Source: Deltaproteobacteria bacterium (GTDB lineage Bacteria; Desulfobacterota; Desulfomonilia; Desulfomonilales; Desulfomonilaceae). From it: a stretch of DNA of 53,841 bases. Below, piece by piece: positions 3,478-24,670 of the stretch. Each line of letters opens with the position of its first letter. Position 1 is the stretch's first letter. The translations under genes were made by a program, and so were the position numbers. The DNA is taken from NCBI GenBank assembly GCA_026388665.1, contig JAPLJJ010000061.1, forward strand, positions 1 to 53,841, read 5' to 3'. A model generated the notes under the pieces. The model saw only the letters and a program-made list of their open reading frames with translations, was not told the DNA's origin and searched no databases.

Positions 3478-4020
3478 ATGTCGGACAGGGAAGGGCCTCC
3501 AAAAATAGGCGTAAAACGTTCAGATGCGAGTCAACCCTTGGTATTGCCGGGTATCCATCGGTACCAGTTTTTCAGCAATCTAAAGGACAGGGGTTGGACT
3601 CTCAATCTGGATAGAGTAGCCCTATTCGGTATAGTGTCCGCTTTACTTGCGACTGTTATTAAACCTCTTCTCCGTGGAAATCCGGCGACGATTTATTGTT
3701 ATGAATGTAGAGCATGTTACGCGACTCAGGACAGGTGTCCGGTAGGAATATCGTTACAAGCTGAACTCGTGGTAGCAGGCAGAGTGCTTGATTATAATCG
3801 GTTCATTCGTAATGGCGGTCTGAAGTGTATCAGGTGTGGCAACTGTCAAAGTTATTGTGTCCAATATTTGCCGCTTCCCAAAATGTTTGAAGTTATGCAA
3901 CAGGAAACAAAACAGGCTATTGTTGCGGGAACTGTTCCCCAGGAATCTTTGGCGCAAGGTCTTGAGCAAGGTTTAATTGGTAAGGAATTTATAGATGACG
4001 TCGTCAAAGCTGTTTCATAA
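3478..4020 (+). CDS. Membrane-anchored ferredoxin-like protein, two [4Fe-4S] sites
   Basis: 180 residues. One hydrophobic segment (about residues 43-60, ALFGIVSALLATVI) is followed by two cysteine groups, CYECRACYATQDRCP and CIRCGNCQSYC. These are the C-x2-C-x2-C-x(n)-C patterns of [4Fe-4S] clusters, although the first has an unusually long x6 spacer and the second lacks the usual closing proline. The C-terminal 50 residues are soluble and helical. The gene overlaps the next one by 26 bases, which suggests translational coupling and a shared complex. AGGA stands about 8 bases before the ATG. The role inferred from context is electron relay at the inner membrane. Confidence 0.75.
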   Translation: MSDREGPPKIGVKRSDASQPLVLPGIHRYQFFSNLKDRGWTLNLDRVALFGIVSALLATVIKPLLRGNPATIYCYECRACYATQDRCPVGISLQAELVVAGRVLDYNRFIRNGGLKCIRCGNCQSYCVQYLPLPKMFEVMQQETKQAIVAGTVPQESLAQGLEQGLIGKEFIDDVVKAVS

Positions 4021-5023
4021 CCCACTGAACACCTTGTGGAGCGTGTTAAGGACCAGAGGAGTTCGTCTCGTCATTTATGCGCTTGTTGTGGCCGCGCTCT
4101 TTCCTTCAAGCCGTTTTATTTTGTTGGTGACGATATTATTAGCGATAGGCTCCATTTGGTGGACTGAGTACCGATCGAACCGGAGTCACAAATTTTTTTA
4201 TCTCCTTGGATTCGTTCTTTTTGTCTTGGCTGGATATGTCGTGACGTTTGTAAATGTGAAAAATGTGGATCAGCTTAGATCTGGCATGAGCCCATGGGGT
4301 GATGGAATTTATCAAGTTAAGGACGGTAAGTATATCGGTGAAAGTCAAGGGTACCGCGGGCCGATCAAAGTACAAATAAAAGTTAAGGACCATCGGGTCA
4401 CAAGTTTGGAGACATTGGAATATCCAGACCTGATTTCTGTGCAGGATAATGAAGTAGCATCTTTCAAGAAGCATTTGCTGGAAAATGGACGCCTTTTTAT
4501 ACCTGAAGACACTGAGATGCTGCGAGGCGCCACGGACACACTCACAGGGTACGTTAATGCAATCCAAGACGCTCTGTCAAAAGGGATCCCGGATTTTCCC
4601 CGGTATGATTGGTTCTCAAATTTTTTCCTGAATTGGTTCATAGGACAGTCCCCTAATCAAGTGACCTTAAACGCTTTGGCCATTTTATTCGCAGTGTTCA
4701 TGGTTTTTGAATACACGTTTCAATCCATGTTAACCCCTGGAACAGGGCGTTCCATAAACTGTTACAATTGTGCGTCTTGTGTAGGAGTTTGCCCTATAAA
4801 AGAGGTAGAGGGCGTCCAAATGCCTATGGGTTTAGTGCTTCTAACAAGATTGGGCAATTATGAACGGGTTATGGAATTGTCCAAGTATTGCGTAGGATGC
4901 GGTCGTTGCGCTGCGAAATGCCCGATTGGAAACTCCGGTCCTATGGTTATTTCCGCGGCTTTCCAGGCAGCCCGTGAAAAGAAACGCTCAGCACATACCG
5001 GAAATGAAAGAGAAACCGCGTGA
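3995..5023 (+). CDS. FMN-binding domain membrane protein with C-terminal 2x[4Fe-4S] ferredoxin
   Basis: 342 residues. Three hydrophobic segments (about 24-36, 41-56, 68-86) lead to a soluble domain with the FMN-binding fold seen in RnfG, NqrC and NosR. Its motif MLRGATDTLTGYV (residues 175-187) carries Thr180 at the position to which FMN is joined through a phosphoester bond in that family. A fourth helix (about 226-242) returns the chain to the other side, where two ferredoxin motifs lie (Cys256/259/262/266 and Cys299/302/305/309). With this topology FMN would be periplasmic and the clusters cytoplasmic. It resembles a NosR/RdhC-type electron conduit in miniature. AAGGA precedes the ATG; the stop overlaps the next start. 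Confidence 0.8.
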   Translation: MTSSKLFHNPLNTLWSVLRTRGVRLVIYALVVAALFPSSRFILLVTILLAIGSIWWTEYRSNRSHKFFYLLGFVLFVLAGYVVTFVNVKNVDQLRSGMSPWGDGIYQVKDGKYIGESQGYRGPIKVQIKVKDHRVTSLETLEYPDLISVQDNEVASFKKHLLENGRLFIPEDTEMLRGATDTLTGYVNAIQDALSKGIPDFPRYDWFSNFFLNWFIGQSPNQVTLNALAILFAVFMVFEYTFQSMLTPGTGRSINCYNCASCVGVCPIKEVEGVQMPMGLVLLTRLGNYERVMELSKYCVGCGRCAAKCPIGNSGPMVISAAFQAAREKKRSAHTGNERETA

Positions 5024-6069
5024 TGCGTGGTGGTTACGGATACTTATTTCTTGGCCTTCTAATCGTGGCCCTTGCTTTCACATTAGGCGAGGTTTCCATT
5101 CGAAGCTTTTCGTGTAAAGCCTGTCATCAACGACAGGCTGAATATGCGCAGTGGATGACTCATCAGTTGAAAGACCAGAATAAAGGTTTTTCTCATGAAT
5201 TGATCGCATGCGCGGATTGTCATATCGAAGGAAGTCCTCAAAACACGATATTATCGAGGGGACGAGCATTACTTCACGCTGTAACCTATCTCGTTCCTCA
5301 GATTGACCCGCGACAAAATCAGACTACCGGGTTATTTTATCGAACGCGAATACCGAGCGCTAATTGTCAATATTGCCATTTCGCTGCCATTTACAGGAAA
5401 ACCGTTTATTTGAAAGATTTACCGAAAGGCCTTAAAGAAATCGGACTTGTAATGGATCACCGCAAACATGTTGTGGCTCGAGACAACACGTGTTCAAAAT
5501 GTCACGAACGTTTTAAAGAGATAGAAGAAAATAAAGCCGACAAAGAAGTCAATTATTCGGAAGTGAATCATCTCGCGTGTGATTCCTGTCACGTGTTCGC
5601 ATCGCATGATTATCAAAAGGGTCGACTCATGCCTTTAAGCGACTCCCAATTCATCGATTCTCGTAAGAACGCCTGGAATGATCTGGTTAGGAATCCGAGA
5701 TGGATGGTCGCAATACCGTCCGAGAAAAGTTGCAGACGTTGCCATAATGGGAAAATTCACTATAAAACCAAGATATTCCTATCCGACTGTCGAGAGGGTG
5801 ATGACTATAAGAATTGCGTAAAGTGTCATCCGGTAATGACCCCGGAATATTTCGAACGCTACCTGAAAGACCGCAACAAGAAAACAATAGCCTCTAGAAT
5901 TTCTCAGGAATTCATATCACCTGATCGATACTCGGAGACAGTTAAAACCTCGACTGCGAGTTCCGACAAAATAGACAGAAGTTATGGTAACCCTAACAAT
6001 CGATTAGAATTAAATTTCCCCAATTCCACAATGAATTGGAGCGGCGGACATGCCAACAGTAATAGATAA
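5023..6069 (+). CDS. Membrane-anchored seven-haem cytochrome c
   Basis: 348 residues from the ATG that overlaps the preceding TGA; a GTG one codon earlier (5020) is an alternative. An uncleaved N-terminal helix (YLFLGLLIVALAFTLG) is followed by CKACH, CADCH, CQYCH, CSKCH, CDSCH, CRRCH and CVKCH, giving seven c-type haem sites. The N-terminal anchor with an early CKACH followed by CADCH recalls the NapC/NirT quinol dehydrogenase layout, but haem count and spacing differ, so membership is uncertain. The haems must be periplasmic. About 70 residues at the C-terminus are hydrophilic and haem-free. The stop overlaps the next gene by 20 bases. Confidence 0.8.
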   Translation: MRGGYGYLFLGLLIVALAFTLGEVSIRSFSCKACHQRQAEYAQWMTHQLKDQNKGFSHELIACADCHIEGSPQNTILSRGRALLHAVTYLVPQIDPRQNQTTGLFYRTRIPSANCQYCHFAAIYRKTVYLKDLPKGLKEIGLVMDHRKHVVARDNTCSKCHERFKEIEENKADKEVNYSEVNHLACDSCHVFASHDYQKGRLMPLSDSQFIDSRKNAWNDLVRNPRWMVAIPSEKSCRRCHNGKIHYKTKIFLSDCREGDDYKNCVKCHPVMTPEYFERYLKDRNKKTIASRISQEFISPDRYSETVKTSTASSDKIDRSYGNPNNRLELNFPNSTMNWSGGHANSNR

Positions 6070-6529
6070 GTCAAAAGAAAAAATGAATCGTGACGTAGCT
6101 GACATGATCCTGAACACCAAGGAACCTCCGGTAGCTCGTTTCCGGTTGCTTTCCAAGGGGATGGAGCCATATCACAGATTATATATATCAGACGAAGACT
6201 CTGATGTTACGGGAGATAAAGGTTGCCTGGCGTGCGGTAATTGCATTGATTCTTGTCCGGTATTGCGAAAGGACCCAAAGCGTTTTGATAAAACTGCTCA
6301 GCGAACTTCATTCGCACTTGAATCATGTGTAGGCGAAGATTGTGAGCAATGCTATTCCTGTGTTCTCGCGTGTCCCCAGGTTGATACCGCCTATAAGGAT
6401 TACATTGTTGACGAAGTAGTGCCTGAGACAATCCAACCCGCGCCAAAAATCACTTCACTTGACAATTACTTCATGGGTTTGATTGCTCTCATCATGGGAA
6501 TCGTCATAGGTGTTTTTCTGGCGCGATGA
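6050..6529 (+). CDS. Tail-anchored ferredoxin-like protein, two [4Fe-4S] sites
   Basis: 159 residues. It contains GCLACGNCIDSCPV and EQCYSCVLACPQV, two [4Fe-4S] motifs in an alpha-helical HdrC/FrdB-like arrangement, preceded by a further Cys pair (SCVGEDC). The C-terminus is a single membrane helix (YFMGLIALIMGIVIGVFLA), so the clusters should face the cytoplasm, near the fumarate reductase-like pair encoded next. It overlaps the cytochrome gene by 20 bases and has GGAG about 8 bases before its ATG. Its likely role is to link a membrane electron donor to the soluble iron-sulfur and flavoprotein subunits; that is inference from gene order. Confidence 0.75.
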   Translation: MPTVIDKSKEKMNRDVADMILNTKEPPVARFRLLSKGMEPYHRLYISDEDSDVTGDKGCLACGNCIDSCPVLRKDPKRFDKTAQRTSFALESCVGEDCEQCYSCVLACPQVDTAYKDYIVDEVVPETIQPAPKITSLDNYFMGLIALIMGIVIGVFLAR

Positions 6530-6574
6530 TTTTTGTTACAAGTCGAGCGTAAGTATTTAGAAAGGATTTGGAAG

Positions 6575-7354
6575 ATGTCCGCGGTCGCTCAACAGTCAAA
6601 GGAACAGACCGGCGCTTCGTATGAAGGTTCTGTTCGAACCGATTTGGTCCCTATTTTCATAATGGGCAAGAAATATGATGTACCCAGCACTCTGACTATT
6701 CAGAAGGCTTTTGAATATGCCGGGTATCAGTTGATTAGAGGTTGCGGTTGCCGAGGCGGCATTTGTGGGGCTTGTGCGACAGTGTACAGGCTACCGGGAA
6801 GCGCCAAGATTAATGTAGGGCTTGCGTGCCAGACAGTAGTCCAGCCTAATATGTACCTCACGATGATCCCGTTCTTTCCGGCTAACCGTGCCGTTTACGA
6901 CATAGATGAACTGAAACCTGATGCGCAGACAATCCTAAAATATTATCCGGAACTGGCTAAATGTATGGGATGCAACACATGCACGAAATCGTGTCCCATG
7001 GAAATACCTGTTATGGAATACATTTCTGCTGCGCTACGAGGTGATATTGAACAAGCCGCTGAAATATCGATGTCTTGTGTTATGTGCGGAATATGTGCGG
7101 CCCGTTGCCCGGCTGAACTGGGCCAGTACAATATCGGAATAATGTGTAGAAGAATAACAGGGAAACACATTAACCCCCGGGCCGAACACTTGCGTGAAAT
7201 GATCGAACGGATCAATTCAGGTCGTTATGAAGATCCATTAAACAAGTTAGTTAACTCGGACCTTCAAACACTTAGGAAGCTCTATGTTGAACGCGAGATG
7301 GAGCCTCACACAGCTCCCGAAGATTGGGCCCCTACTGACAAAGCTTTTTTGTAA
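6575..7354 (+). CDS. Fumarate reductase/succinate dehydrogenase-like iron-sulfur subunit
   Basis: 259 residues from the ATG at 6575, which has AGGA about 8 bases upstream; an in-frame TTG at 6533 is less likely. The N-terminal half is a plant-type [2Fe-2S] ferredoxin domain (CRGGICGAC, then Cys in GLACQT). The second half holds CMGCNTCTKSCP and CVMCGICAARCP, as in FrdB, SdhB and the front part of TfrB, but both C-terminal motifs look like full [4Fe-4S] sites rather than the mixed [4Fe-4S]/[3Fe-4S] set of classic SdhB. There is no CCG domain, so it is not a full TfrB. It is followed at once by the flavoprotein subunit. Confidence 0.85.
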   Translation: MSAVAQQSKEQTGASYEGSVRTDLVPIFIMGKKYDVPSTLTIQKAFEYAGYQLIRGCGCRGGICGACATVYRLPGSAKINVGLACQTVVQPNMYLTMIPFFPANRAVYDIDELKPDAQTILKYYPELAKCMGCNTCTKSCPMEIPVMEYISAALRGDIEQAAEISMSCVMCGICAARCPAELGQYNIGIMCRRITGKHINPRAEHLREMIERINSGRYEDPLNKLVNSDLQTLRKLYVEREMEPHTAPEDWAPTDKAFL

Positions 7355-7395
7355 TTAATTTTTGAAACACTCAGCCTTTTTTGATGGAGGCGACC

Positions 7396-9075
7396 ATGGG
7401 ATATACGTCAGATTTACTTGAACTCATAAAGAGAGTTGACAAAACTAGACCCGAGCGAGTTGCTCGTAAAAAAGCCGGTGAAGAGTTTCCGGCCCTCACT
7501 TTGGATCAGCGCAAGGCCAGACTCGAGAAATATCATCCGGATTATAGACCCGGAGCGCTCCGCGAACTCAAGATCGGCCCAAGTAAGGGCTATTCCGTAG
7601 CTCAGGAAATAGCTGATCAGTTTGAAGCTAGGAGCCGGATAGACCCCGACAAGATAGACTTGAACGAAGTTCATTACGAAACTGATGTTTTGGTTATCGG
7701 AGGCGGCGGCGCAGGAACAGCGGCCGCTCTATTGGCCGAAGAAAAAGGCGCGCAAGTTATCATCGCGACCAAACTACGGCATGGCGACGCTAACACTATG
7801 ATGGCTGAAGGCGGAATTCAGGCCGCAACCAAGAGTTGGAAGGATTCTCCTTACTACCATTATCTTGACGTAATTGGGGGTGGTCACTTTGAAAATGACC
7901 CACTCCTCGTAAAAACCATGGTGTCAGAAGCCCCAAAGGCAATAGGCTGGTTGGAAAACCTGGGTTGCATGTTCAACAAATGGCCTAGTGGGAGTTTGTT
8001 CACACTCCACGGGGCAGGGACGTGTCGCAAGAGGATGCATTACGCAGGCGACATCACCGGCGCTGAAATAATGAGGACTCTAAGGGATGAAGCCAGAAAC
8101 AGAGTCAAAAACATAGGGGTTCTTGAATTTTCTCCTGCAGTGGAGTTGCTTCTCGACGATCAGGGGACTTGTTCCGGGGCAGTGCTCTACAACCTTGAGA
8201 CTGAAGAGTATTTTCTAGTCAAGGCTAAAGCTGTAGTTATGGCTACCGGTGGATCCGGTCGCCTTCACATGCAAAAATTCATGACCACTAACCATTACGG
8301 AGCGACTGGCGATGGGCTGGTTATCGGATACCGTATCGGCGTTGGCGTGAGATTCTTACACGCGACTCAATATCATCCGACCGGCGCAGTATTCCCTGAA
8401 CAGGTTGAAGGCTTGCTAATTACGGAGAAAGTAAGGGGCGCAGGCGCAAACCTCGTCAATACAGATGGTGAACAGTTTGTTTTCGAACGTGAGCCGCGAG
8501 ACATCGAATCCTCAAGTATTATTCGTGAGTGTGAAAAAGTAGGTAAAGGGATACCGGTCCCAGGACAGGCAGGTAAATTTGGAGTATGGCTTGATTCCCC
8601 TATGATTGACCTCCTCGAAGGAGAAGGGACAGTAGAACGGGAATTCCCGGCTAAATTCATTCTCTTCAAACGCCATGGAATAGACATTTCCAAAGTGCCT
8701 ATGTTGATCTACCCCACACTGCACTACCAAAATGGGGGATTGGAATATAAATCAGACGGATCAACTAAAGTGCCAGGTTTTTTTGTGGCTGGTGAAGTAG
8801 GTGGAGGCGTCCACGGAGCGAACCGATTGATGGGTAATTCTCTTCTGGATATTACGGTCTTCGGGAGATTGGCTGGTGAATCAGCCGGTAAGTTCGCTGT
8901 TGAGAGAAAAGATGTAGGGAAAATCAGTGTTGAGCATGTTCGTCAGTACCACAAGGAACTTGAAGCCTCCGGAATCATAACGGATAGGGTTTCCCCAATG
9001 GTCTTGCCGGATTATACGAACCCTGAAGTGAAAAAGCGTCAATTGACCACAACATATATAGGGTCCTTAAGATAA
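7396..9075 (+). CDS. Fumarate reductase/succinate dehydrogenase-like flavoprotein subunit
   Basis: 559 residues from the ATG at 7396, chosen because GGAGG lies 5 bases before it; in-frame TTG 7381 and ATG 7384 have no such site. After a 95-residue N-terminal extension the FAD-binding Rossmann motif VIGGGGAGTAAA appears. Residues that bind or act on the dicarboxylate in FrdA/SdhA are present: QYHPTG, ITEKVRGAG, the Arg of EPRDIESSS, the His of YPTLHYQNGG and the Arg of HGANRLMGNSLL. The His that carries covalent 8-alpha-FAD in SdhA/FrdA is replaced by Asn (GDANTMMAEGG), so the FAD should be non-covalent. The C-terminal helical domain is short. No Tat signal: cytoplasmic. The substrate may be fumarate/succinate or a related unsaturated acid. 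Confidence 0.85.
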   Translation: MGYTSDLLELIKRVDKTRPERVARKKAGEEFPALTLDQRKARLEKYHPDYRPGALRELKIGPSKGYSVAQEIADQFEARSRIDPDKIDLNEVHYETDVLVIGGGGAGTAAALLAEEKGAQVIIATKLRHGDANTMMAEGGIQAATKSWKDSPYYHYLDVIGGGHFENDPLLVKTMVSEAPKAIGWLENLGCMFNKWPSGSLFTLHGAGTCRKRMHYAGDITGAEIMRTLRDEARNRVKNIGVLEFSPAVELLLDDQGTCSGAVLYNLETEEYFLVKAKAVVMATGGSGRLHMQKFMTTNHYGATGDGLVIGYRIGVGVRFLHATQYHPTGAVFPEQVEGLLITEKVRGAGANLVNTDGEQFVFEREPRDIESSSIIRECEKVGKGIPVPGQAGKFGVWLDSPMIDLLEGEGTVEREFPAKFILFKRHGIDISKVPMLIYPTLHYQNGGLEYKSDGSTKVPGFFVAGEVGGGVHGANRLMGNSLLDITVFGRLAGESAGKFAVERKDVGKISVEHVRQYHKELEASGIITDRVSPMVLPDYTNPEVKKRQLTTTYIGSLR

Positions 9076-9082
9076 GCATTTC

Positions 9083-9625
9083 ATGATATCTGATTTGTCA
9101 AAAAAAAAGGGTAACCTGTCAGGTCTTTTGGGCTATCTCGCAAAACTCAAAGATCCTGAGTCCTATTGGGGGCGTCAGGCGGTCTATTGCGGGATCATGC
9201 TTGTATTGTTGATAGGGGCCGGTGTCTTATTAGGGTTTTTGACGTTATCAGGTGTTTTTGGTGGTGGAAACATTTCATATCCAGCCTATGGTTCCCCCGG
9301 GCAGGTGGTTTTCAAACATTATACGCACATGTGGTTCAAGAACGGAAAATACAAGGATTGTAAAACCTGTCATGACAAGTTGTTTGCTTCCCAACAATAC
9401 GGCACTTTTATCTTAAGGGCGTTAAAGGATTCCCCACCTCTAAAGGTCCACATAGGGAAAGAGGAGTCAACCCTTTTCGTGCCCGGAACGTTAGAGGAAG
9501 ATGAAAAGTCTATGGTGAAATACGGGGTTCCTAGAGCATGCGCTACGTGCGCCACAGGCGCCTGCCATGACGGCAAGGAGTCTTTTAGTCGATTTGAATG
9601 TTTGGGTTGCCATAGAGTTAAATGA
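9083..9625 (+). CDS. Membrane-anchored three-haem cytochrome c (c7/c3-like)
   Basis: 180 residues. One N-terminal membrane helix (about residues 37-58) anchors a periplasmic domain with haem sites CKTCH (103-107), CATGACH (156-162, a C-x4-C-H motif) and CLGCH (173-177). The segment VVFKHYTH ahead of the first site supplies His residues of the kind that serve as sixth haem ligands in class III cytochromes c3 and c7. C-x4-C-H sites are known in tetrahaem c3, so the third site is believable. The gene sits between the fumarate reductase-like pair and the molybdoenzyme-type module, 7 bases after the former, and could be the haem subunit of either, as QrcA or ActA is in related complexes. Confidence 0.75.
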   Translation: MISDLSKKKGNLSGLLGYLAKLKDPESYWGRQAVYCGIMLVLLIGAGVLLGFLTLSGVFGGGNISYPAYGSPGQVVFKHYTHMWFKNGKYKDCKTCHDKLFASQQYGTFILRALKDSPPLKVHIGKEESTLFVPGTLEEDEKSMVKYGVPRACATCATGACHDGKESFSRFECLGCHRVK

Positions 9626-9658
9626 ATTGCTTATCTAATTAGTTAGAAAAATAAACTT

Positions 9659-10411
9659 ATGAGTGGAACTGAAATAAGAGACAAAATTGATACTGCAAAA
9701 ACAGGTCCTGACGCTAAATCGGGGGATGGCGGTTGCGTCATGAGTCAGGAGAAACCTAAACGCTGGGGTATGGTTGTTGATCAGAGGCGCTGCATCGGTT
9801 GTCATAGCTGCACAGTCGCCTGCAAAAGCGAAAACAATGTACCTCTGGGCTATTGGCGATCTTGGGTTAAAGGAATCCAAAAAGGGGATTTCCCCAGCGT
9901 TAGCAATATGTTTCTGAGAAGACTCTGTAACCAATGCGACTCTCCACCCTGTGTTCAGGTTTGTCCGGTGCAAGCCACGGTCAGGAGACCTGAAGATGGT
10001 GTTATCGTGATGTATTACGGAAAGTGCATCGGTTGTGGAATGTGTATCTCAGCTTGTCCTTATGACGCCAGATTCTTTAACCCCTTCAGGAATACAGCCG
10101 ATAAGTGCGATTTCTGTGTCACCCGAATTGATAACGGTCTCCAGCCTGCCTGTGTAGAGGCTTGTGTCTCAGGAGCCTTGATTTTTGGAGATATCGACGA
10201 TTCTTCGTCTGAAATCTACCATGTTCTAGCGACTATCCCTACCTCGGTCATAAAATCCGAATTAGGAACGAAACCCAAGGTCTATTACATTCAGGCTGAA
10301 CACTCCTTAAAAGGAAGAATCTCGTTTTCGGAAAATTTCAAAGAGGCTATTATCGATTATCGGAAAAGTATCCCGAGCCCCGAAGCTTCTTACTGGGAAA
10401 AACAGGAATAG
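9659..10411 (+). CDS. PsrB/DmsB/QrcC-like four-cluster ferredoxin subunit
   Basis: Up to 250 residues. Sixteen cysteines in four groups (CIGCHSCTVACKS, CNQCDSPPCVQVCP, CIGCGMCISACP, CDFCVTRIDNGLQPACVEAC) match the electron-transfer subunit of complex iron-sulfur molybdoenzymes. There is no export signal, as is usual for a subunit that hitch-hikes with the Tat-exported catalytic partner. The start is uncertain: ATG 9659 lacks a ribosome site, while ATG 9740 (MSQEKPKRWGMV) has GGGGGAT about 12 bases upstream and would give the typical family N-terminus. It precedes the NrfD-type gene by 10 bases. Confidence 0.9.
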   Translation: MSGTEIRDKIDTAKTGPDAKSGDGGCVMSQEKPKRWGMVVDQRRCIGCHSCTVACKSENNVPLGYWRSWVKGIQKGDFPSVSNMFLRRLCNQCDSPPCVQVCPVQATVRRPEDGVIVMYYGKCIGCGMCISACPYDARFFNPFRNTADKCDFCVTRIDNGLQPACVEACVSGALIFGDIDDSSSEIYHVLATIPTSVIKSELGTKPKVYYIQAEHSLKGRISFSENFKEAIIDYRKSIPSPEASYWEKQE

Positions 10412-10421
10412 AAATAAACAA

Positions 10422-11312
10422 ATGGAATCTACCGTTCTTTACAACGTGCCTCACGAAATTCCCTGGAAGGTTTTGATTCCTCTATATTTTTATTTTACGG
10501 GGCTTAGTGCTGGTTCGTTCATTCTTTCAACACTATCAACAGTTTTCAGGATCAAACGTTTCAAACCGATGGCACTGCCTGCGGCGATTATTTCTTTTTT
10601 TCTGCTATTGCTGGCACCGGCCTGTCTGATTTTGGATCTTCGGCAACCGTTGCGATTCTGGCATACCCTGGTTCCGGAATATTTCAATCCTACATCCGCC
10701 CTATCTTACGGGTCATGGTTGTTGACCCTGTACCCAATTGCGAATCTTATCTACATCTATTTTATATATGTGAAAAACGATCGTATAACCCGAATTATTG
10801 GGACGATAACAGTGCCTCTGGCTATTTTCGTACATGCGTATACAGGGTTCGCTTTCGCGTTGGTTAGAGCCCGGGCATGGTGGCATTCAGCGTTAATGCC
10901 CGGCTTTTTTCTTACTTCCGCTCTCTTGTCTGGTATAGCCCTTCTTGTAATTGTCGCTCTCATTATGGATCGATTCCGGACTGAAAAATTGGAGGAGGAT
11001 TTATACAAGAGCCTCCGTATTATGATGATTGGTATCTTGCTTACCGATCTATTTTGGACAGGAAGTTTTTGGCTAACTCTTTTGGTATCAAATGCGGATG
11101 GACATGCATCCATATTGTTGGCGTTGCATGAAACATTTTACCTATGGGGAGAAATCGTTGCTGGAATGCTTTTCCCCTTGGCAATACTCGTTTACCCAAA
11201 AACCGGAAACAATAAGATGTGGCTGTCCTTTGCCTCGATATTGATAATTTGCGGTGTTTTCTTGATGAGATACTCAGTTGTTTTCATCGGTTTTGATATC
11301 CCTTTGAGTTAG
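10422..11312 (+). CDS. NrfD/PsrC-family quinone-interacting membrane subunit
   Basis: 296 residues with about eight strongly hydrophobic helices and short loops, the standard NrfD/PsrC/QrcD architecture. The N-terminal segment PWKVLIPLYFYFTGLSAGSF matches the family's first helix, and the helix with HAYTGFAFALVRARAWWHSALMPG has the charged and aromatic residues expected near the quinone or proton path. It would anchor the ferredoxin and catalytic subunits to the inner membrane and exchange electrons with menaquinone. It lies between those two genes with spacings of 10 and 23 bases, a typical B-C-A order. Confidence 0.9.
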   Translation: MESTVLYNVPHEIPWKVLIPLYFYFTGLSAGSFILSTLSTVFRIKRFKPMALPAAIISFFLLLLAPACLILDLRQPLRFWHTLVPEYFNPTSALSYGSWLLTLYPIANLIYIYFIYVKNDRITRIIGTITVPLAIFVHAYTGFAFALVRARAWWHSALMPGFFLTSALLSGIALLVIVALIMDRFRTEKLEEDLYKSLRIMMIGILLTDLFWTGSFWLTLLVSNADGHASILLALHETFYLWGEIVAGMLFPLAILVYPKTGNNKMWLSFASILIICGVFLMRYSVVFIGFDIPLS

Positions 11313-11335
11313 AGGCTTACCTGTAAAAAGCTAAT

Positions 11336-13627
11336 ATGTCTAAATTAACACGTAGAGACTTTCTAAGAATTGCTTCCTTAATGGGAGGGGCGTCTCTGTT
11401 CGCCGGTTGTTCCTTGTTTGAAAAACAAGCAGACGTGCCTGAATACATCGAAGGCGCTCCGGCAGTCGATCCTATAGAAACATTGCCGGGAATCGGAAAT
11501 AAATATACTGTTTGCGCCCTTTGCTCGGGAGCCTGCGGCATTAGCTGTCGGATAGCCCAGGGAAAACTTGTAAAAATAGGCGGGAATCCATTTCATCCGG
11601 TTTCTAAGGGAGAGCCTCTAGCTTTTGACACACCGCTGGAGCTGGCGTGCAAAGTCGGGGCGTCCATTTGCGCTATCGGATCTAGCGGCATACAAACTCT
11701 GTATGATCCCTTCAGAATCCTTAAGCCACTTAAACGCATCGGTCCGAGGGGATCAGGGAAATGGAAGGCAGTTTCATGGGATCAGGCCATTCATGAAATA
11801 GTTCAAGGCGGCAATCTTTTTGGAGAGGGCGACGTTGAGGGCCTTAGAACAATCAAAGCGTCCGGATCTGGGCCCACACTATTAGCCGGTAGAATTGACT
11901 GGGGAGCGCTTACCTTTGTGGAAAGATTTTTTTCATGTTTCCCCGGGGCGACTCTCGCACGTTCTAGTGATGTGATCTTAGATCACAGAGCTTCTTTAGT
12001 CGCTGAATCGGTTTTTGGACCTGGACTTGGTTTATTGGATGCCGATTACCGAAAGGCAGAATTTTTGCTGACTTTTGGTTTGACACCACTAGATTCCGGT
12101 GAACCATTAGTGTCAATCGCTCGCGAAATAGCGAATGCGCGATTAAAATCGCCATGTATGTCTTGGGTAGTGGTGGATCCACGACTTTCGACTTCTGCGT
12201 CCAAAGCTGACCATTGGGTTCCCATTATTCCTGGAACAGACGATAAATTAGCCTTAGCCATCGCAAAGGCCCTTTTTGAGAAATATTCAGAATCTTTGAA
12301 ACAGCGCGATGATGAACTAAAAAAACTTACCGAAAAATATTCATTTCAGGAACTCGCCTCATCTTGTGGAATTGAATCGGGGATCATATTCAAGATAGCT
12401 GATATGTTGGTTAAAGCCGGCCCAAAATCCGCAGCGCTCTGTGGAAATAGTATTTTAGGACAGCCTGATGGTGAAAATACCGCTCGATTAATCCTGACAC
12501 TTAATTCATTGGTTGGATCGACCCCATGGTCGGGTGGTTTATTGAGCCGGAAGCAAGGGGTCTTTGAACATTTGAAGACTTCGTTCCTGGGTCCGGATTC
12601 TCTTAAGTTAGATCCCATACCGCTGCCCCCAAAGAATCGCGCTCTTATTATGTGGGAGGCAGATCCGGTTTATTACGAACCTCAAACAACACCTGATACG
12701 CTTTCTGACAGAGCGGCAAATCCGTTATTTATAACAATTGATCGGACTATCACCGAGACAGGAGCCTTTTCAGATTACATTCTCCCTGACACAACGTATC
12801 TGGAGAGATGGGACATTTGCTCATTACCGCCGTCTTGTGACAAACCTGGGTTCGGGGTCAGATCTCCGGTTGTTGGTGGTATTGATTCTGAATCCGGTCA
12901 TTACTTCCCTGTTTTACCCGATAATGTGATCATGGAAGATATCCTGATTCGACTCGGAGCTTCAGTTGGGTTACCGCAATTTATCCCGGACCAACAGGGT
13001 AAATTACCCAACTCGTGGCAGTTCTATCAAAAGGCATTTTCAATCGCTGCAACTTATATTGACAAGCAATACGAGGGCATTGGTCAAGATTCAAGGCGTC
13101 AGGTCTCCGAAATATTAGACCGTGGAGGCATATTCCCAGTTTCTGACAAAAAAATTGTTTCGAGCCAATCCATAGATACCAAGGCAAAAGCTCGAAAAAC
13201 ATGGCTAATTAACTTCTCATCGGAGAAAAAAGAATCGGAAGAAGATTTAATATTGGTGGCTTATACGTTGCCTTTTCATCGATCCCCTCGATCCGGTATC
13301 AATTCGTGGTTACTTGAAACCTTACCTGAAAATAAACTAATTATAAATCCACGAGACGCTACGAAGAGAAAAATTAAACAGGGCGATGAGTTAATTGTTC
13401 AAACAACTGATGGAAAGGTTACAACTCACATAAAAGCTCAAGTCGCGCCGGGGATACGTCCAGGAATCGTGGCTATCGCAAAAGGCTTCGGTTACAAAGG
13501 ATCTGGAGCAATCGTAAATACTATTGACACCTTGAAGTCTAAGTCGGACAGAACTAGGGGCGCCGGTATAAACACTGAGATGTTCTCGGGCCAGTTGCCT
13601 GTGAGGGTCAAAATAAATAAAGTCTAA
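11336..13627 (+). CDS. Molybdopterin oxidoreductase-family catalytic subunit, Tat lipoprotein
   Basis: 763 residues. The N-terminus combines a Tat motif (TRRDFLRIASL) with a lipobox ending at Cys25 (LFAGC). The [4Fe-4S] site is Cys60, 63, 67 and 112 (VCALCSGAC and SICAIG), followed by GIQTLYDPFRILKPLKR, which identifies the PsrA/PhsA/QrcB branch. The residue two after the last Cys, normally Lys or Arg on the path from cluster to pterin, is Ile114. The molybdenum-ligand position cannot be assigned with confidence (the region around RSSDVILDH has no Cys). This raises the option that, like QrcB, it binds no molybdenum and only passes electrons. The C-terminal pterin-binding domain is complete (HRSPRSGINSWLLE...GDELIVQTTDG). 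Confidence 0.85.
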   Translation: MSKLTRRDFLRIASLMGGASLFAGCSLFEKQADVPEYIEGAPAVDPIETLPGIGNKYTVCALCSGACGISCRIAQGKLVKIGGNPFHPVSKGEPLAFDTPLELACKVGASICAIGSSGIQTLYDPFRILKPLKRIGPRGSGKWKAVSWDQAIHEIVQGGNLFGEGDVEGLRTIKASGSGPTLLAGRIDWGALTFVERFFSCFPGATLARSSDVILDHRASLVAESVFGPGLGLLDADYRKAEFLLTFGLTPLDSGEPLVSIAREIANARLKSPCMSWVVVDPRLSTSASKADHWVPIIPGTDDKLALAIAKALFEKYSESLKQRDDELKKLTEKYSFQELASSCGIESGIIFKIADMLVKAGPKSAALCGNSILGQPDGENTARLILTLNSLVGSTPWSGGLLSRKQGVFEHLKTSFLGPDSLKLDPIPLPPKNRALIMWEADPVYYEPQTTPDTLSDRAANPLFITIDRTITETGAFSDYILPDTTYLERWDICSLPPSCDKPGFGVRSPVVGGIDSESGHYFPVLPDNVIMEDILIRLGASVGLPQFIPDQQGKLPNSWQFYQKAFSIAATYIDKQYEGIGQDSRRQVSEILDRGGIFPVSDKKIVSSQSIDTKAKARKTWLINFSSEKKESEEDLILVAYTLPFHRSPRSGINSWLLETLPENKLIINPRDATKRKIKQGDELIVQTTDGKVTTHIKAQVAPGIRPGIVAIAKGFGYKGSGAIVNTIDTLKSKSDRTRGAGINTEMFSGQLPVRVKINKV

Positions 13628-19900: not shown

Positions 19901-20329
19901 TCATTTCTGTTCTTGAACCTTTTTAATTTCTCCTCCGACAAAATTCTCAAAAGAGTCATCCACTGTCATGAGGGCATCCCATTCATCCGTCAGGTTGGAG
20001 GGTTTGATTTTACATATCCAACCTTCTCCATACGGATCAGAGTTAATTTTTTCAGGCTCGTCTTCGAGCAAAGTGTTTACTTCAAGCACTTCCCCGGATA
20101 CCACCGCATAAATTCGTCCTACCCATTTCCCGGATTCAATAGAACCGTACGGCTTGCCTTGGGTTAATTCGTCGCTTTCCTCAGGAAGATCGACAAAAGT
20201 GATCTCGCCGGCCTGTTTCGAAATGAATTCACCGGCTCCTGTGATTACTATATCGCCATCCATTCTAGCCCAATAATGGTTCTTTTCGAACTTAAGATCA
20301 TCCGGGAAAAAATAGCCTTCGAACTCCAT
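19901..20329 (-). CDS. GcvH-like lipoyl-domain protein in an Hdr cluster
   Basis: 142 residues from the second of two in-frame ATGs; AGGAG lies 6 bases before it, whereas the first ATG (20335) directly abuts AGGAG. The fold blocks of the glycine cleavage H protein are present, with the lipoylated Lys in SIESGKWVGRIYAVVSGEV and the following VLEVNTLLEDEPEKINSDPYGEGW. No other glycine-cleavage gene (gcvT, gcvP) is near. Instead hdrB and hdrC lie directly upstream. Lipoate-binding H-like proteins (LbpA) work with Hdr-like complexes in sulfur oxidisers, so it may carry a dithiol or sulfur substrate for this Hdr. A housekeeping H protein displaced from its operon is the alternative. Confidence 0.85.
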   Translation of the reverse strand: MEFEGYFFPDDLKFEKNHYWARMDGDIVITGAGEFISKQAGEITFVDLPEESDELTQGKPYGSIESGKWVGRIYAVVSGEVLEVNTLLEDEPEKINSDPYGEGWICKIKPSNLTDEWDALMTVDDSFENFVGGEIKKVQEQK

Positions 20330-20407
20330 TTTCATCTCCTAAAGGTATGACGCAAACTCTATCCCGAAAAGATTGGGTGAGTGAATGAGAAAAATTATTT
20401 GCGTAAA

Positions 20408-21283
20408 TCAGCCCTCGACAATTTTAAGAAGGGTCGCCGATTTAATCCTGTTAAGTTTAAAACCTAACTGTTCGGATGTCATGCCGAGCGCCAGCCCCAA
20501 GACTTGAGGATAGTAAACTACAGGCGCCTTGAGGTCAAGACCAGTTGATTTAGCGATTTTTTTCTGTTGTCCTTCATACATAACATTGCAAAACGGACAG
20601 ACTAAAACCAAGGCATGAGCGCCGGACTGCGAGACATCTTCAAGTTTTCGCGCCGCCATTGCATTGGCAATCTCTTCTGAAAAACCTAACAAACCGCCTC
20701 CACAACAGTCCAAGAGTGATGGATAGTTAACCACGGTCGCACCCGTGGCGGATATCATTTCAGAAAGTGTTCTCGGTGTTTCAGGGGAATCAAAGCCAAC
20801 ATTCAACTCAGAAGGTTTTAAATAATGGCAACCATAATGAGGGGCCAACATTATCCCTTCTAGTGGTCTGACGATAGCTTTTCGGATTCCCTCGACACCA
20901 ACTTCTTCCCAGAGTAGCCTCATGAAATTTCTGACTCTGACATTTCCTTCAAGATGAAGCCCGATAAGTCTAAGCCTTTGGTTGATTTTTTCTCTTGTTT
21001 CTGGATTGGTTCTTACCTGATGCGCTACCTCGTTTAATGTGCCGGCGCACGCGTTGCATAATGCGCAAATATCCAAGCCTTCTCTTTCTGCCAGCGCTAG
21101 GTTCCTTGCAGCAGTGACCAAGGTGTCTTCAACGTTGAGAGATTTCAGAGGGAACCCGCAACAACCAAACTCCTCGAGATCCCGGAAAGTTATACCGAGG
21201 GCCTTTGCCGTCAGTCTTGCAGAAACCTCATAATTCAAATTTCTTACCGGAACGGTGCAGCCAAGATACAAAAGGGCTTCCAT
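20408..21283 (-). CDS. hdrB: Heterodisulfide reductase subunit B-like protein (two CCG domains)
   Basis: 291 residues. Both CCG (cysteine-rich) domains that bind the non-cubane [4Fe-4S] clusters of HdrB are intact. The first has Cys9, Cys41-Cys42 (GCCGFP) and CNAC at 76-79; the second has HYGCH, DCCGGG and CPFC. In methanogens this subunit reduces the CoM-S-S-CoB heterodisulfide; in sulfate reducers HdrB-like proteins act on unknown disulfide or quinone-linked partners. It follows hdrC by 31 bases and precedes the lipoyl protein. The C-terminus is about 30 residues longer than the last CCG motif. Confidence 0.93.
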   Translation of the reverse strand: MEALLYLGCTVPVRNLNYEVSARLTAKALGITFRDLEEFGCCGFPLKSLNVEDTLVTAARNLALAEREGLDICALCNACAGTLNEVAHQVRTNPETREKINQRLRLIGLHLEGNVRVRNFMRLLWEEVGVEGIRKAIVRPLEGIMLAPHYGCHYLKPSELNVGFDSPETPRTLSEMISATGATVVNYPSLLDCCGGGLLGFSEEIANAMAARKLEDVSQSGAHALVLVCPFCNVMYEGQQKKIAKSTGLDLKAPVVYYPQVLGLALGMTSEQLGFKLNRIKSATLLKIVEG

Positions 21284-21314
21284 AAAAAATTACCTGCTAA
21301 ATAAGCTAAAAATT

Positions 21315-21824
21315 CTATGTTGTAGCGCCATGATTTGGGGTGTTATTGACAGACTGATCCGGTAACAAAGCTTCAAAATCTTCAGGATGCTCGACAATCG
21401 GAGGCAACCCAAACTTCAGACGCTTGTCATTTTCAAAGTCGCCTACTTCATAAAGCCTTCCGTGTCTTTTGAGTAGGGATCGCTGCACAGTCAGGCCTGG
21501 AGGTATACAAGCTTCTCTGGCGGCTAAGTTCTTAATTGCGTACATTACTTCTGTAAAGCGCACATTTTGCGGACATACCTCCTGACAACCATAACAGGAA
21601 GAACAAAGCCATATGAAATCACTTTCCAAGACCTGCTTCTTCATCCCGAGGAGGGCCATCCTTATTATTTTTCGCGGATCATAACGCTTATCCAGGGGTT
21701 GAATAGGGCAAGCCGCGGTGCAAGCCTTACACGCGAAACAGGCTTTCAGACCTTCTCCACCGGGTTGTTCCGCTATCTTATGCTTAAATTCAGGGTCTAA
21801 ATCGTTCAGATTGATTCTAGTCAT
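21315..21824 (-). CDS. hdrC: Heterodisulfide reductase subunit C-like ferredoxin
   Basis: 169 residues with two [4Fe-4S] motifs, CFACKACTAACP and CSSCYGCQEVCP, in the all-helical HdrC arrangement. There is no membrane segment, unlike QmoC, so with HdrB it forms a soluble pair. In several Gram-positive sulfate reducers a soluble HdrCB pair replaces QmoC next to QmoAB; the order seen here (hdrA-like, hdrA-mvhD-like, hdrC, hdrB) is the same. CGAGG stands about 5 bases before the ATG. It should pass electrons from the HdrA-type flavoproteins to HdrB. Confidence 0.93.
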   Translation of the reverse strand: MTRINLNDLDPEFKHKIAEQPGGEGLKACFACKACTAACPIQPLDKRYDPRKIIRMALLGMKKQVLESDFIWLCSSCYGCQEVCPQNVRFTEVMYAIKNLAAREACIPPGLTVQRSLLKRHGRLYEVGDFENDKRLKFGLPPIVEHPEDFEALLPDQSVNNTPNHGATT

Positions 21825-21865
21825 GACCTCGTTTCCTGACTCAAAATTGGAAACCGGAATTATTA

Positions 21866-23263
21866 CTAATTGTCTGTACGACTCTTCAATCGCGCAATTG
21901 CTTCCACAATCCGTCCAGGGGTATTTCCCGCCAAATATATAAATTCAAGCCTTTCCGGATCTATACCCGCTTGTTTGAGTGTCTTGGAAGTCTGCGTGAC
22001 TCTTTCCTCCGCAAGGGTTGACCCATAAATAGATGCGCAGTTGCCCTTGAAACATCCAGCCACTATTATCCCGTCGGCTCCATCAAGAAAAAATTTCAAA
22101 AGGGAATTAGGGTCTAAAGACCCTGCGCAAGGAAGGGCGCAAATTTCAACGTCAGACAGTAAGGTCTGATTAATTTTCCCCGCTGCTTGCAACCCGGAAC
22201 GGGAGCACACAAGCAACTTGATTCGTCCCGATTCGCCGGTTTTGGCGCCATTGGAGAACAGATTGGAGTCTACTTCCAAAACATCAGCATTATTTGATCG
22301 AGTTTGAATGGCTCCCATGGGGCATTCTAATATGCAAATCCCGCACATCTTACAGGACAGCGGATCTACTTCAGGACGAGAATGAAATCCTATAGCTCCG
22401 TGAGGACACAACCTAATACATGTCAGACAAAACGCACATTTGGTCTTATCTACAAAAGCCGCTTCCCGTTCAGTAATCCTCGACAATTCGGGCAAAGTTT
22501 TCAGCACGGATACCATGACAGCGTCGATATCCGCTTTAAGGGATTCATTATCAAAAACCCCTCTTGCAGGCCCGACGGCGTAAACACCTGCTTTGGGGGT
22601 TTCTGCTCCATTAAATCTAGTAGATTCCGGTTGTAAATAAGGAGCAAATGCAGGGGCCGAAGGAATCATTTTCAACAAAGGATCAAGGTCAATTGGAGGA
22701 CCTAAGATTTCATCAAGCACTATCCAATCCGGGGTAAGTTCCATTTTCTCGCCAAGCAACGGTTCCACAAATTCGATTACGCAGCCTCTCTCGTTCTGAA
22801 CAATTTGTGGATCAGGGCCATCGAATTTGAAAAACACAACGCCTCGTTGACGATGATATCGATACCTAGCCTCCAGTCCAGCAGACGCCACTTTCAGGTC
22901 GCGTGTGAAAATGTAGGGTTGAACTTGATGGAAGATTTCCAGCCGGTCGAGAATCGACAGCAATGTTTCAAACTGAGAAATGTCCGAGGAACCTTTTAAA
23001 TCAAAGAAAAACGCAATGTGACGCCAGGTTCCGTTGTTTTCCGACAACCTATCACCTGAATCTAAGAAACGCTTGAACTCTGAGAGACTATAGATTTTGT
23101 CCGAACTCGTTAGAGAAAATGCATTGGTTTTGGATTGCTGATTGGCAGGCTGCGCAGCAATGATGAAACCAAACATCTCATCATATCGATCAGTTGGCGT
23201 ATGTATTTGAACATCAAAATTACCGACAAACCCGGAAACCTGACTTATCGAGCCCTGAATCAC
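21866..23263 (-). CDS. Degenerate HdrA/QmoB-like protein fused to MvhD domain (main frame)
   Basis: 465 residues from GTG 23263, but the frame is open without a start back to a stop at 23326, and homology continues into it. The first part (VSGFVGNFDVQIHTP) matches the HdrA segment that follows its FAD and cluster region. Residues about 60-240 correspond to the rest of HdrA but have lost its CVGSRD and YCSQICC blocks. Then come two [4Fe-4S] motifs (CAFCLTCIRLCP, CKMCGICILECP) and a C-terminal MvhD-like [2Fe-2S] domain (LLVCSRSG, LPCAGSLDP, GCFKGNC). QmoB has the same HdrA-ferredoxin-MvhD order but with a full FAD domain. An N-terminal piece lies in another frame at 23292-23435. Confidence 0.75.
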   Translation of the reverse strand: MIQGSISQVSGFVGNFDVQIHTPTDRYDEMFGFIIAAQPANQQSKTNAFSLTSSDKIYSLSEFKRFLDSGDRLSENNGTWRHIAFFFDLKGSSDISQFETLLSILDRLEIFHQVQPYIFTRDLKVASAGLEARYRYHRQRGVVFFKFDGPDPQIVQNERGCVIEFVEPLLGEKMELTPDWIVLDEILGPPIDLDPLLKMIPSAPAFAPYLQPESTRFNGAETPKAGVYAVGPARGVFDNESLKADIDAVMVSVLKTLPELSRITEREAAFVDKTKCAFCLTCIRLCPHGAIGFHSRPEVDPLSCKMCGICILECPMGAIQTRSNNADVLEVDSNLFSNGAKTGESGRIKLLVCSRSGLQAAGKINQTLLSDVEICALPCAGSLDPNSLLKFFLDGADGIIVAGCFKGNCASIYGSTLAEERVTQTSKTLKQAGIDPERLEFIYLAGNTPGRIVEAIARLKSRTDN

Positions 23264-23291
23264 GTCAACTTTTGAATTTTCAGAATGTATG

Positions 23292-23435
23292 TCATTGGGT
23301 CCAATCAGGACACAAAAGTTCAGCTATTCTGATTCCGGATTCGTCTCCCCCCAAGACCAAGGCTCTATTTGAGACATGATCTTTAATTTTGAGTGTGCCC
23401 TCTAGAAAAACCGATTCTGTGACCCGTCCTCTCAC
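23292..23435 (-). pseudogene. Frameshifted N-terminal fragment of the HdrA-MvhD-like gene
   Basis: A 47-codon frame starts at GTG 23435, two bases after the stop of the upstream hdrA-like gene and with GAGGGGAG 9 bases before it. It encodes RVTESVFLEGTLKIKDHVSN then RALVLGGDESGIRIAELL, which looks like the start of an HdrA-type Rossmann fold with the GxGxxG motif eroded. After ELL, at a run of four T (plus-strand AAAA at about 23314-23317), a shift by one base joins it to CVLIGPNDIHSENSKVDV in the main frame. Removing one T would fuse both parts into one protein of about 522 residues. A sequencing error, a true mutation and programmed shifting cannot be told apart from this sequence. Confidence 0.6.
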
Positions 23436-23437
23436 AA

Positions 23438-24670
23438 TTATTCTCCCCTCTTAATCCGATCGAGATATTTCTTAATCTGAGAAGCGGCCAAAATCGATTG
23501 TGAAATGCAGCCAGTTATAGATTTCGGACCCTTCGCGGCGCCTGCCACAAAGATTCCTGGATGGCCTGCGGCAACGTCATTGCCTTCTGACCCGATAAAA
23601 CCATCTCGGTTTTTCCACAGGGCTGGGAAGCTTCCCGGCAAATCAGGGTCTCTTGGAGAAATCCCAATGCTTAGTATAACAAGGTCAAAGGGGACTATTT
23701 GTTTTGTATCATCATTGCCATGATAAATTATTTCAGGGCGTCCATCTTCGCCTGAGCGAATTTCTGAAGGCATTGATCTGACAAACATCATATCGTTCTT
23801 AGTTTGGTCTAATGTTTTGTCGAATTCTCTTTCGAACGTTTGAATGTCCATATAGAAAATCGTTATCCGGGTCTCAGTGTGCCGGCTCTTGATAAGACGA
23901 GCCAACCTTATTGAGACTCCGCAGCAGATTTGTGAACAATAATTTGCGCCCGATTTGGGATCTCTGCTACCAACACACTGAATAAAAGCTATTGATTTGA
24001 GTCCGTCAGAAGACTGAGGAAGCTGAAAATTTTCTGCTCGCAGCAAAGAATCTAGTTCCAGCGAAGTCAAGACTCCCGGAACTCGCTGGTACCCAAGTCT
24101 AGGCTTCTGAGACGCGTCAAAAGGCGTAAAACCTGTGCATAACGCGATAGCCGAAGATTGAATCTCTAACTCTCGATTTTTTTCTTCTAATTCTATTGCT
24201 CCCTGGGGACAGATCTGAGCGCAGGCTTCACAAGAAATTCCCTTAGATTTCAGACACTTTTCGTTGGAAATGTGCAGGCTGGAATCTAAAGGCGATTTGA
24301 ACAGCGCTCCTTCCGCTGGACAAACCTTTTCGCATAGACCGCAATCGTCGCATTTTTCGTTGATTACTCCAGATCGCCTCTGCATAATGAGGGCATTGAA
24401 TTCTCGACCAGCCTGGCTAAATGAATCGATCCTAGATCCTACCAACATTTGGATATTGTTAGTTCTGGGCAATTTGCTCAGGTAATCCTCCAGGAGGCAA
24501 GCGCCACATCTTTGGCATGTCTGAGTCGCTTTACAGGCAAATTGAGAGACATGTCCCCCAATGAAAGGAGCTTTTTCGATGAGAATTGATTGAATCCCCA
24601 GACACGAGAGTTCCCAGGCTAAGCTCAGGCCGGTGATTCCGCCACCTACTATGAGTACGTCTTTTTTCAT
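23438..24670 (-). CDS. HdrA/QmoA-like FAD iron-sulfur protein
   Basis: 410 residues, the size of QmoA and shorter than methanogen HdrA. The FAD site is VLIVGGGITGLSLAWEL and the second FAD block is HPGIFVAGAAKGPKS. The HdrA cysteine group is CKATQTCQRCGAC, and two ferredoxin motifs follow (CDDCGLCEKVCP and CLKSKGISCEACAQICP). The blocks IQCVGSRDPKSGANYCSQICC and FYMDIQTFEREFD are typical of HdrA and QmoA. Such proteins collect electrons on FAD and clusters in Hdr or Qmo complexes. It heads a five-gene minus-strand run and is divergent from the ECF sigma gene across 174 bases. Confidence 0.9.
   Translation of the reverse strand: MKKDVLIVGGGITGLSLAWELSCLGIQSILIEKAPFIGGHVSQFACKATQTCQRCGACLLEDYLSKLPRTNNIQMLVGSRIDSFSQAGREFNALIMQRRSGVINEKCDDCGLCEKVCPAEGALFKSPLDSSLHISNEKCLKSKGISCEACAQICPQGAIELEEKNRELEIQSSAIALCTGFTPFDASQKPRLGYQRVPGVLTSLELDSLLRAENFQLPQSSDGLKSIAFIQCVGSRDPKSGANYCSQICCGVSIRLARLIKSRHTETRITIFYMDIQTFEREFDKTLDQTKNDMMFVRSMPSEIRSGEDGRPEIIYHGNDDTKQIVPFDLVILSIGISPRDPDLPGSFPALWKNRDGFIGSEGNDVAAGHPGIFVAGAAKGPKSITGCISQSILAASQIKKYLDRIKRGE

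Follow-up and report, generated by a model that had tools for sequence, protein, structure and literature searches.

A QmoAB-HdrCB-like cluster of Desulfomonilaceae encoding an LbpA-type lipoyl protein, a candidate thiol/disulfide carrier

Heterodisulfide reductase complexes of the HdrABC type occur in many bacteria without coenzyme M (CoM) and coenzyme B (CoB), and for few of them is the disulfide substrate known; in Desulfovibrio, DsrC is the known Hdr disulfide partner (cited in PMC10504309). Already known are the sHdr-LbpA system of sulfur oxidisers, the Hdr-type methylene-tetrahydrofolate (methylene-THF) reductase, and the idea of a GcvH-HdrB disulfide interaction in Culexarchaeia. LbpA has two conserved cysteines (PMC6067878), and a lipoate-assembly pathway of the sLpl-LipT-LipS1/S2 type has been described for the sHdr sulfur oxidisers (PMC10332631). 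MetVF-Hdr-MvhD complexes are known from acetogens, with no mention of a lipoyl protein in the available text of PMC9430772, and an excerpt of PMC9723716 places GcvH of Culexarchaeia beside HdrB/HdrA2B2C2 and a hydrogenase, the authors suggesting that a GcvH-borne lipoyl disulfide may interact with HdrB. The locus considered here lies in a stretch of 53,841 nucleotides (the window, meaning the whole stretch analysed) from a Desulfomonilaceae metagenome-assembled genome (MAG; G000, in which the window is contig C110) that is 83% complete, and comprises genes for QmoA-like, HdrA-MvhD (QmoB-like), HdrC and HdrB proteins followed by one for a lipoyl protein, LIP1. Its sequence places LIP1 with LbpA and not with the GcvH of glycine cleavage, and the lipoyl group may serve this and other Hdr-like enzymes as a thiol/disulfide carrier. 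A literature search, with subscription papers largely outside its reach, returned no account of sulfate reducers in which QmoAB-HdrCB, GlcD-HdrD or HdrD-NarI is accompanied by a lipoyl protein of the LbpA type.

Composition and conservation of the cluster

All features are listed in the direction of transcription; in the text, labels beginning with G, C and L denote genomes, contigs and loci.

23438..24670, minus strand: QmoA/HdrA-like iron-sulfur protein with flavin adenine dinucleotide (FAD), 410 amino acids (aa); NCBIfam HdrA2, E 1e-75, under the equivalog cut-off
23292..23435, minus strand: N-terminal piece of the QmoB-like gene, 47 codons, ended by a frameshift; aligns with residues 1-41 of intact orthologues
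21866..23263, minus strand: QmoB-like HdrA-MvhD, remaining open frame of 465 aa; PF02662, E 2e-23, and Fer4; orthologues 62-65% identical
21315..21824, minus strand: HdrC, 169 aa, two CxxCxxCxxxC motifs (4Fe-4S); TIGR03290, E 2e-27, under the equivalog cut-off
20408..21283, minus strand: HdrB, 291 aa; TIGR03288, E 5e-69, under the equivalog cut-off; both CCG motifs complete
19901..20335, minus strand: LIP1, GcvH-fold lipoyl protein assigned to the LbpA type; PF01597, E 1e-34; motif ESGKWVG; invariant C108; on the LbpA side of the tree
20126..20128, minus strand: codon of the predicted lipoyl lysine K70, within SIESGKWVG; invariant in the LIP alignment

The coordinates, strand and identities behind the original prediction hold; LIP1 probably starts at the internal ATG at 20329. 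Both CCG ligand sets of HdrB are complete (C9/CC41-42/C76-x2-C79 and C152/CC193-194/C229-x2-C232), and two non-cubane 4Fe-4S sites are expected from them. The QmoB-like gene starts at 23435 in a different frame from its remainder, which is open from about 23311 to 21866 and encodes two 4Fe-4S motifs and a C-terminal MvhD/FlpD domain; since about 23 nucleotides are missing relative to the uninterrupted orthologues, the GTG at 23263 is not the true start. Close relatives carry this gene as one uninterrupted open reading frame (ORF) of 521-569 aa, and the break is therefore put down either to a deletion local to this MAG or to a fault in its assembly.

The gene order is conserved in related genera, and the cluster is thus not a chance arrangement. 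Among named relatives, those closest to the locus are MAGs of Desulfomonilaceae, several of them labelled Desulfomonile. Six of the seven genomes of the genus have an orthologue of LIP1 (71-87%), as do most of the family's other genera, and its gene almost always comes immediately behind HdrC-HdrB; this adjacency persists across Desulfomonilaceae genera at 70-92% identity, G011 being an exception with LIP on one contig and HdrCB on another, and LIP1 is among the best-conserved members of the cluster. The same HdrC-HdrB-LIP order recurs in Desulfarculaceae and allies, including Desulfocarbo indianensis and Dethiosulfatarculus sandiegensis, with 47-61% identity for HdrC, HdrB and most LIPs, and there the lipoyl gene is usually followed by one for an 860-aa FAD-dependent protein of the 2-hydroxyacid-dehydrogenase type fused to an HdrD-like CCG domain.

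The absence of aprAB noted in the original prediction applies to the cluster and not to the genome, where aprA (G000:C251) and canonical qmoBC with the end of qmoA (G000:C9) lie outside the window; in G010, a two-contig genome of 6.5 Mb from the same family, aprB-aprA-qmoA-qmoB-qmoC are contiguous. The QmoA-like protein of the window is only 27-29% identical to the real QmoA of its own and related genomes, and 33% identical to HdrA from an archaeal LIP locus. This low identity, together with the canonical apr/qmo genes elsewhere, makes the window cluster an additional complex, probably not a donor to adenosine phosphosulfate (APS) reductase. The proposed match to the soluble gene arrangement of Gram-positive sulfate reducers is only partial in gene order, since Desulfotomaculum reducens has HdrC-HdrB-Sat-AprBA-QmoAB (PMC4759654).

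A MetV-like gene without MetF stands directly upstream of QmoA in G009, G010, G012 and G013, and MetV is also beside the cluster in G014 (L073). MetF is adjacent only in two other MAGs, where the order is MetV-MetF-QmoA-QmoB-HdrC-HdrB-LIP (L079, L088), and the window cluster forms no operon with MetV and MetF. A C1 role is thus plausible for this family and, as MetV was not detected at most Desulfarculaceae loci, not general. Between MetV and the Hdr cluster, the genus also keeps a respiratory-looking gene group (window 3478-13627) encoding an iron-sulfur protein, a membrane protein with flavin mononucleotide-binding and 4Fe-4S domains, cytochromes, a SdhA/FrdA-like flavoprotein, a NrfC/NrfD-like pair and a molybdopterin oxidoreductase.

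Identity, partners and lipoylation of LIP1

Although LIP1 has the H-protein fold, its lipoyl motif differs from that of the glycine-cleavage type, which reads ES(V/T)K(A/S). The motif ESGKW or a near variant is shared with authentic LbpA, both in the Bacillota sHdr loci L104, L115 and L118, whose proteins have N- and C-terminal cysteines and one of which reads ESAKW, and in the proteobacterial reference, a plasmid protein of Acidithiobacillus ferrooxidans. In an unrooted maximum-likelihood tree of 76 proteins, built on a short alignment (134-143 columns), a starred branch (99/98) divides 23 rows on the GcvH side from 53 on the ESGKW side, and both LIP1 and LbpA fall on the ESGKW side. A subset of 39 rows holding LIP1, LIP2 (a second ESGKW protein described below) and LbpA is likewise starred, at 99/91 when the motif columns are kept and at 98/90 when they are left out. 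When the nine motif columns are removed, only one truncated, long-branch row (L039) switches sides, and a single clade of the 53 rows is not rejected (p-AU 0.295). The protein at L039 (G006), like others in G001 and G003, is a very divergent GcvH-like protein encoded with LipA, a lipoate ligase, dihydrolipoamide dehydrogenase and small redox proteins.

The genomic context points the same way. No GDC-P (GcvP) match was found in the seven genomes of the genus, two of which are 97% and 99% complete, whereas such matches are present in G010, G011, G013 and G014, and in G010 a separate GcvH with the motif ESTKA is encoded between gcvT and gcvPA/gcvPB. A housekeeping GcvH was rejected on this lack of gcvP matches in the genus and on the tree position, and the original prediction thereby survives its own refuting condition, a tight grouping of LIP1 with housekeeping GcvH as the genome's only H protein beside gcvTP elsewhere. 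Searches of the PDB returned GcvH structures only. On this sequence evidence, LIP1 is assigned to the LbpA group and not to glycine-cleavage GcvH.

The co-occurrence of such lipoyl proteins with Hdr genes, a check named in the original prediction, was examined across the phylum. A first scan of the whole collection, which yielded most of the relatives, was seeded with GSIESGKW and hence biased to the motif; a second draw, seeded only with PF01597, covered 59 genomes spread evenly across the phylum and 74 GcvH-family loci, in 12 of which the lipoyl lysine is followed by tryptophan ([GR]KW). A gene for a CCG, HdrB or HdrD protein lies within about 3 kb in 9 of these 12 loci versus 1 of the 62 others (Fisher 2e-8; the 12 come from about six families and are not independent), a GlcD-type gene is adjacent in 8/12 versus 0/62, and gcvP is adjacent in none of the 12 and in 26 of the 62. 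Three types of partner recur, namely soluble QmoAB-HdrCB, a fusion of 2-hydroxyacid dehydrogenase with HdrD, and a membrane HdrD-NarI cytochrome, and the sets overlap: QmoB-HdrC-HdrB-LIP-GlcD/HdrD (L277, L281, L283), LIP flanked by HdrCB and by HdrD-NarI (L252), GlcD/HdrD with LIP, HdrD and a NarI-type cytochrome (L246, L273), and cytochrome-LIP-HdrD-LplA (L276). In Desulfomonilaceae, LIP2 has as its neighbours a lipoate ligase, an HdrD-like protein and a cytochrome of the multiheme/NarI type (L033, L034, L036, L040); no LIP2 turned up in G004 (99% complete) or in the window genome. Among the lines of sequence evidence, we give this mixture of CCG partners around one carrier family the greatest weight in favour of a shared redox carrier. 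The ESGKW hallmark, MetV in other genera, the alternative partners and the QmoB frameshift had all been overlooked in the original prediction.

Several further arrangements were seen around GcvH-fold proteins. The LIP2 locus L033 also includes lactate-racemase-like and GlcDF-like genes. In Bathyarchaeota (L095, L097, L103), an ESGKW lipoyl protein and a lipoate ligase are encoded downstream of HdrA-MvhD-HdrC-HdrB, with hydrogenase genes too in L103. Some GcvH-fold proteins of the phylum are without the lipoyl lysine (SIESSESVS, SIESQNEV and similar; L243, L247, L263, L268, L291), and proteins of 230-340 aa with a GcvH-like domain occur, often in several tandem copies per genome (L038; G043:C10, G061:C1, G064:C14).

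The machinery for lipoylation is also encoded. The window genome has an operon of the sLpl-LipT-LipS1-LipS2 type in a row (C165), in which sLpl is a 527-aa LplA-type ligase with a DUF116 C-terminus and LipT is assigned by position and by its FAD/geranylgeranyl-reductase-family type; operons of the same type are found in G001, G004, G006 and G010. Lipoate ligases were sought with PF21948, and PF03099 matches were rejected since they are BirA instead. In G004, the only LplA-type gene sits in this operon and LIP1 is the only GcvH-type match, the PF00364 matches being biotin carriers (EAMKM, ESMKM) or a marginal HlyD-like match, and LIP1 is hence the only visible client for lipoylation there. A lipoate ligase, whose presence the original prediction named as a check, is thus encoded in the genome, and is of the sHdr type. 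In G010 (L194:6793-9821), a dihydrolipoamide dehydrogenase gene lies directly upstream of the operon, a position that hints at exchange between NAD(H) and lipoyl carriers.

Proposed mechanism and competing explanations

The explanation favoured here, with moderate confidence, is that the cluster encodes a soluble Hdr-like complex for which the lipoyl group of LIP1 would be both thiol/disulfide substrate and shared carrier, linked to MetV in Desulfomonilaceae. HdrB-type CCG sites act on disulfides, and the two non-cubane clusters of HdrB would make or break the lipoyl disulfide of LIP1, itself presumably lipoylated by the sLpl-LipT-LipS1-LipS2 machinery. HdrC and the flavin and iron-sulfur QmoAB-like subunits would relay electrons onward, with MvhD as a possible docking site, and LIP1 as dihydrolipoyl would carry two electrons between this complex and other CCG enzymes, such as membrane HdrD-NarI cytochromes and 2-hydroxyacid-dehydrogenase-HdrD proteins. 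In Desulfomonilaceae, MetV would be part of the system and the electrons would probably serve the methylene-/methyl-THF step of the Wood-Ljungdahl pathway. The potential of lipoamide, about -290 mV, lies below the lactate/pyruvate and methylene-/methyl-THF couples, and methylene-THF reduction would thus be downhill and lactate-type oxidation uphill unless coupled. Gene content, intact active-site residues, synteny, phylogeny, the lipoylation operon and the lack of competing clients are read from the sequence; from these we infer the lipoylation of LIP1, the role of its lipoyl group as HdrB substrate, the direction of flow and the coupling to MetV. The core idea of the original prediction, a dedicated lipoyl carrier for an Hdr-like complex as in sHdr-LbpA, stands, with electron transfer through the lipoyl group as its conjectural part.

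Several points weigh against this explanation. Every step of the mechanism is drawn from sequence evidence; LIP1 has only C108 and neither of the LbpA cysteines (C7 and one at about 144-148); and electron flow in the oxidative sense would call for confurcation or a shifted potential. In the GKW class, a GlcD-type gene is all that lies near two of the members, and lipoate-assembly genes are all that lie near another. LipS1 and LipS2, though best matched by their own NCBIfam models, fall slightly under the equivalog cut-offs, MetV in the window genus is about 20 kb off, in a conserved neighbourhood (on the separate contig C303 in G000), and the QmoB-like gene of the window carries a net 23-nucleotide deletion near 23312 relative to intact orthologues.

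The competing explanations differ mainly in the part left to LIP1. The main rival, which we consider unlikely, makes it a carrier of sulfur substrates as proposed for LbpA, the lipoyl group binding sulfane sulfur for oxidation by the Hdr complex, for instance in thiosulfate or sulfur disproportionation; subfamily, motif and type of lipoate-assembly operon are indeed those of LbpA, and Desulfomonile tiedjei is listed as a disproportionator (PMC12998232). The single HdrB and single HdrC, the missing terminal cysteines, and the 2-hydroxyacid dehydrogenase and cytochrome partners of related loci argue against it, and inspection by eye of the ORF lists for the cluster's surroundings revealed no TusA, DsrE or rhodanese. 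A similarly improbable account holds that the complex is an Hdr-type methylene-THF reductase, with MetV and HdrABC-MvhD as in Moorella and Sporomusa, and that the lipoyl protein is structural or accessory and not a redox carrier. MetV adjoining the cluster in related genera, MetVF in L079/L088, and the physical interaction of MetVF with Hdr subunits in Sporomusa (PMC9430772) agree with such a reductase, whereas an accessory role would fit poorly with the invariance of the lipoyl lysine and its surroundings and with the association of the same lipoyl family with CCG enzymes at loci without detected MetV, as in most Desulfarculaceae.

The remaining two explanations carry less weight. That a soluble QmoAB-HdrBC donates to APS reductase, with the lipoyl gene a hitchhiker, has a precedent in the variants of some Deltaproteobacteria (PMC10504309) and is nevertheless very unlikely, given the canonical qmoABC elsewhere, which in G010 directly follows aprBA, the strong conservation of LIP1 within the cluster, and an association of its class with CCG genes far over background; as a main role it was rejected on account of the canonical genes. 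Ordinary GcvH, in glycine cleavage or reductive glycine synthesis, can point to the NCBIfam GcvH models, which match LIP1 slightly above cut-off, and is highly improbable in view of the lack of GDC-P matches in the genus, the separate ESTKA GcvH beside gcvTP in G010 and the position of LIP1 in the tree. As for the classical HdrABC substrate, CoM-S-S-CoB, CoM and CoB are to our knowledge not expected in this lineage.

A wider proposal, held with less than even confidence, is that bacteria have their counterpart of CoM-S-S-CoB in a lipoyl disulfide bound to protein. Across many sulfate reducers and syntrophs, an ESGKW carrier with its own LipS1/S2 route would cycle between 2-hydroxyacid-dehydrogenase-HdrD enzymes and complexes of the soluble HdrABC and membrane HdrD-NarI types; lipoic acid may then be the missing thiol/disulfide electron carrier for Hdr-like enzymes in bacteria. 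If so, several orphan Hdr and CCG clusters would find a common explanation in a dedicated lipoyl protein, the non-canonical role of lipoic acid would widen from sulfur oxidisers to strict anaerobes, and some bacteria that have LipS1/S2 without sHdr would gain a possible client, sHdr being present in only 42% of LipS1/S2-containing bacteria (Tanabe 2023, PMC10332631).

Relation to described systems

One close likeness is to sHdr-LbpA (Cao 2018, PMC6067878; Tanabe 2023, PMC10332631), in which an ESGKW GcvH-like lipoyl protein is also encoded with Hdr-like subunits and the lipoate assembly is of the same sLpl-LipT-LipS1/S2 type. The window cluster differs in having one HdrB and one HdrC, QmoAB-like flavoproteins with MvhD and, as judged by eye from the ORF lists, no sulfurtransferases, and the system differs in the missing LbpA cysteines, which some archaeal LbpAs also lack at both termini, in its setting in a sulfate-reducer-type anaerobe and in its linkage to MetV. 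In the case of Culexarchaeia, the cluster is that of an archaeal membrane hydrogenase, and the available part of PMC9723716 makes no link through motif, tree or lipoylation operon. The QmoAB-HdrBC of Gram-positive sulfate reducers and some Deltaproteobacteria (PMC4759654, PMC10504309) shares QmoA, QmoB, HdrB and HdrC without the membrane subunit QmoC, but the window cluster is not beside aprBA, for which the same genome has a separate QmoABC, and is followed by the lipoyl gene. Finally, the Hdr-type methylene-THF reductase (MetVF-HdrABC-MvhD of Moorella and Sporomusa; PMC9430772) resembles it in combining HdrA, HdrB, HdrC and MvhD modules with MetV, and with MetF in L079/L088, whereas in the window cluster HdrA is split into QmoA- and QmoB-like genes, MvhD forms part of a fusion, and there is an additional lipoyl protein.

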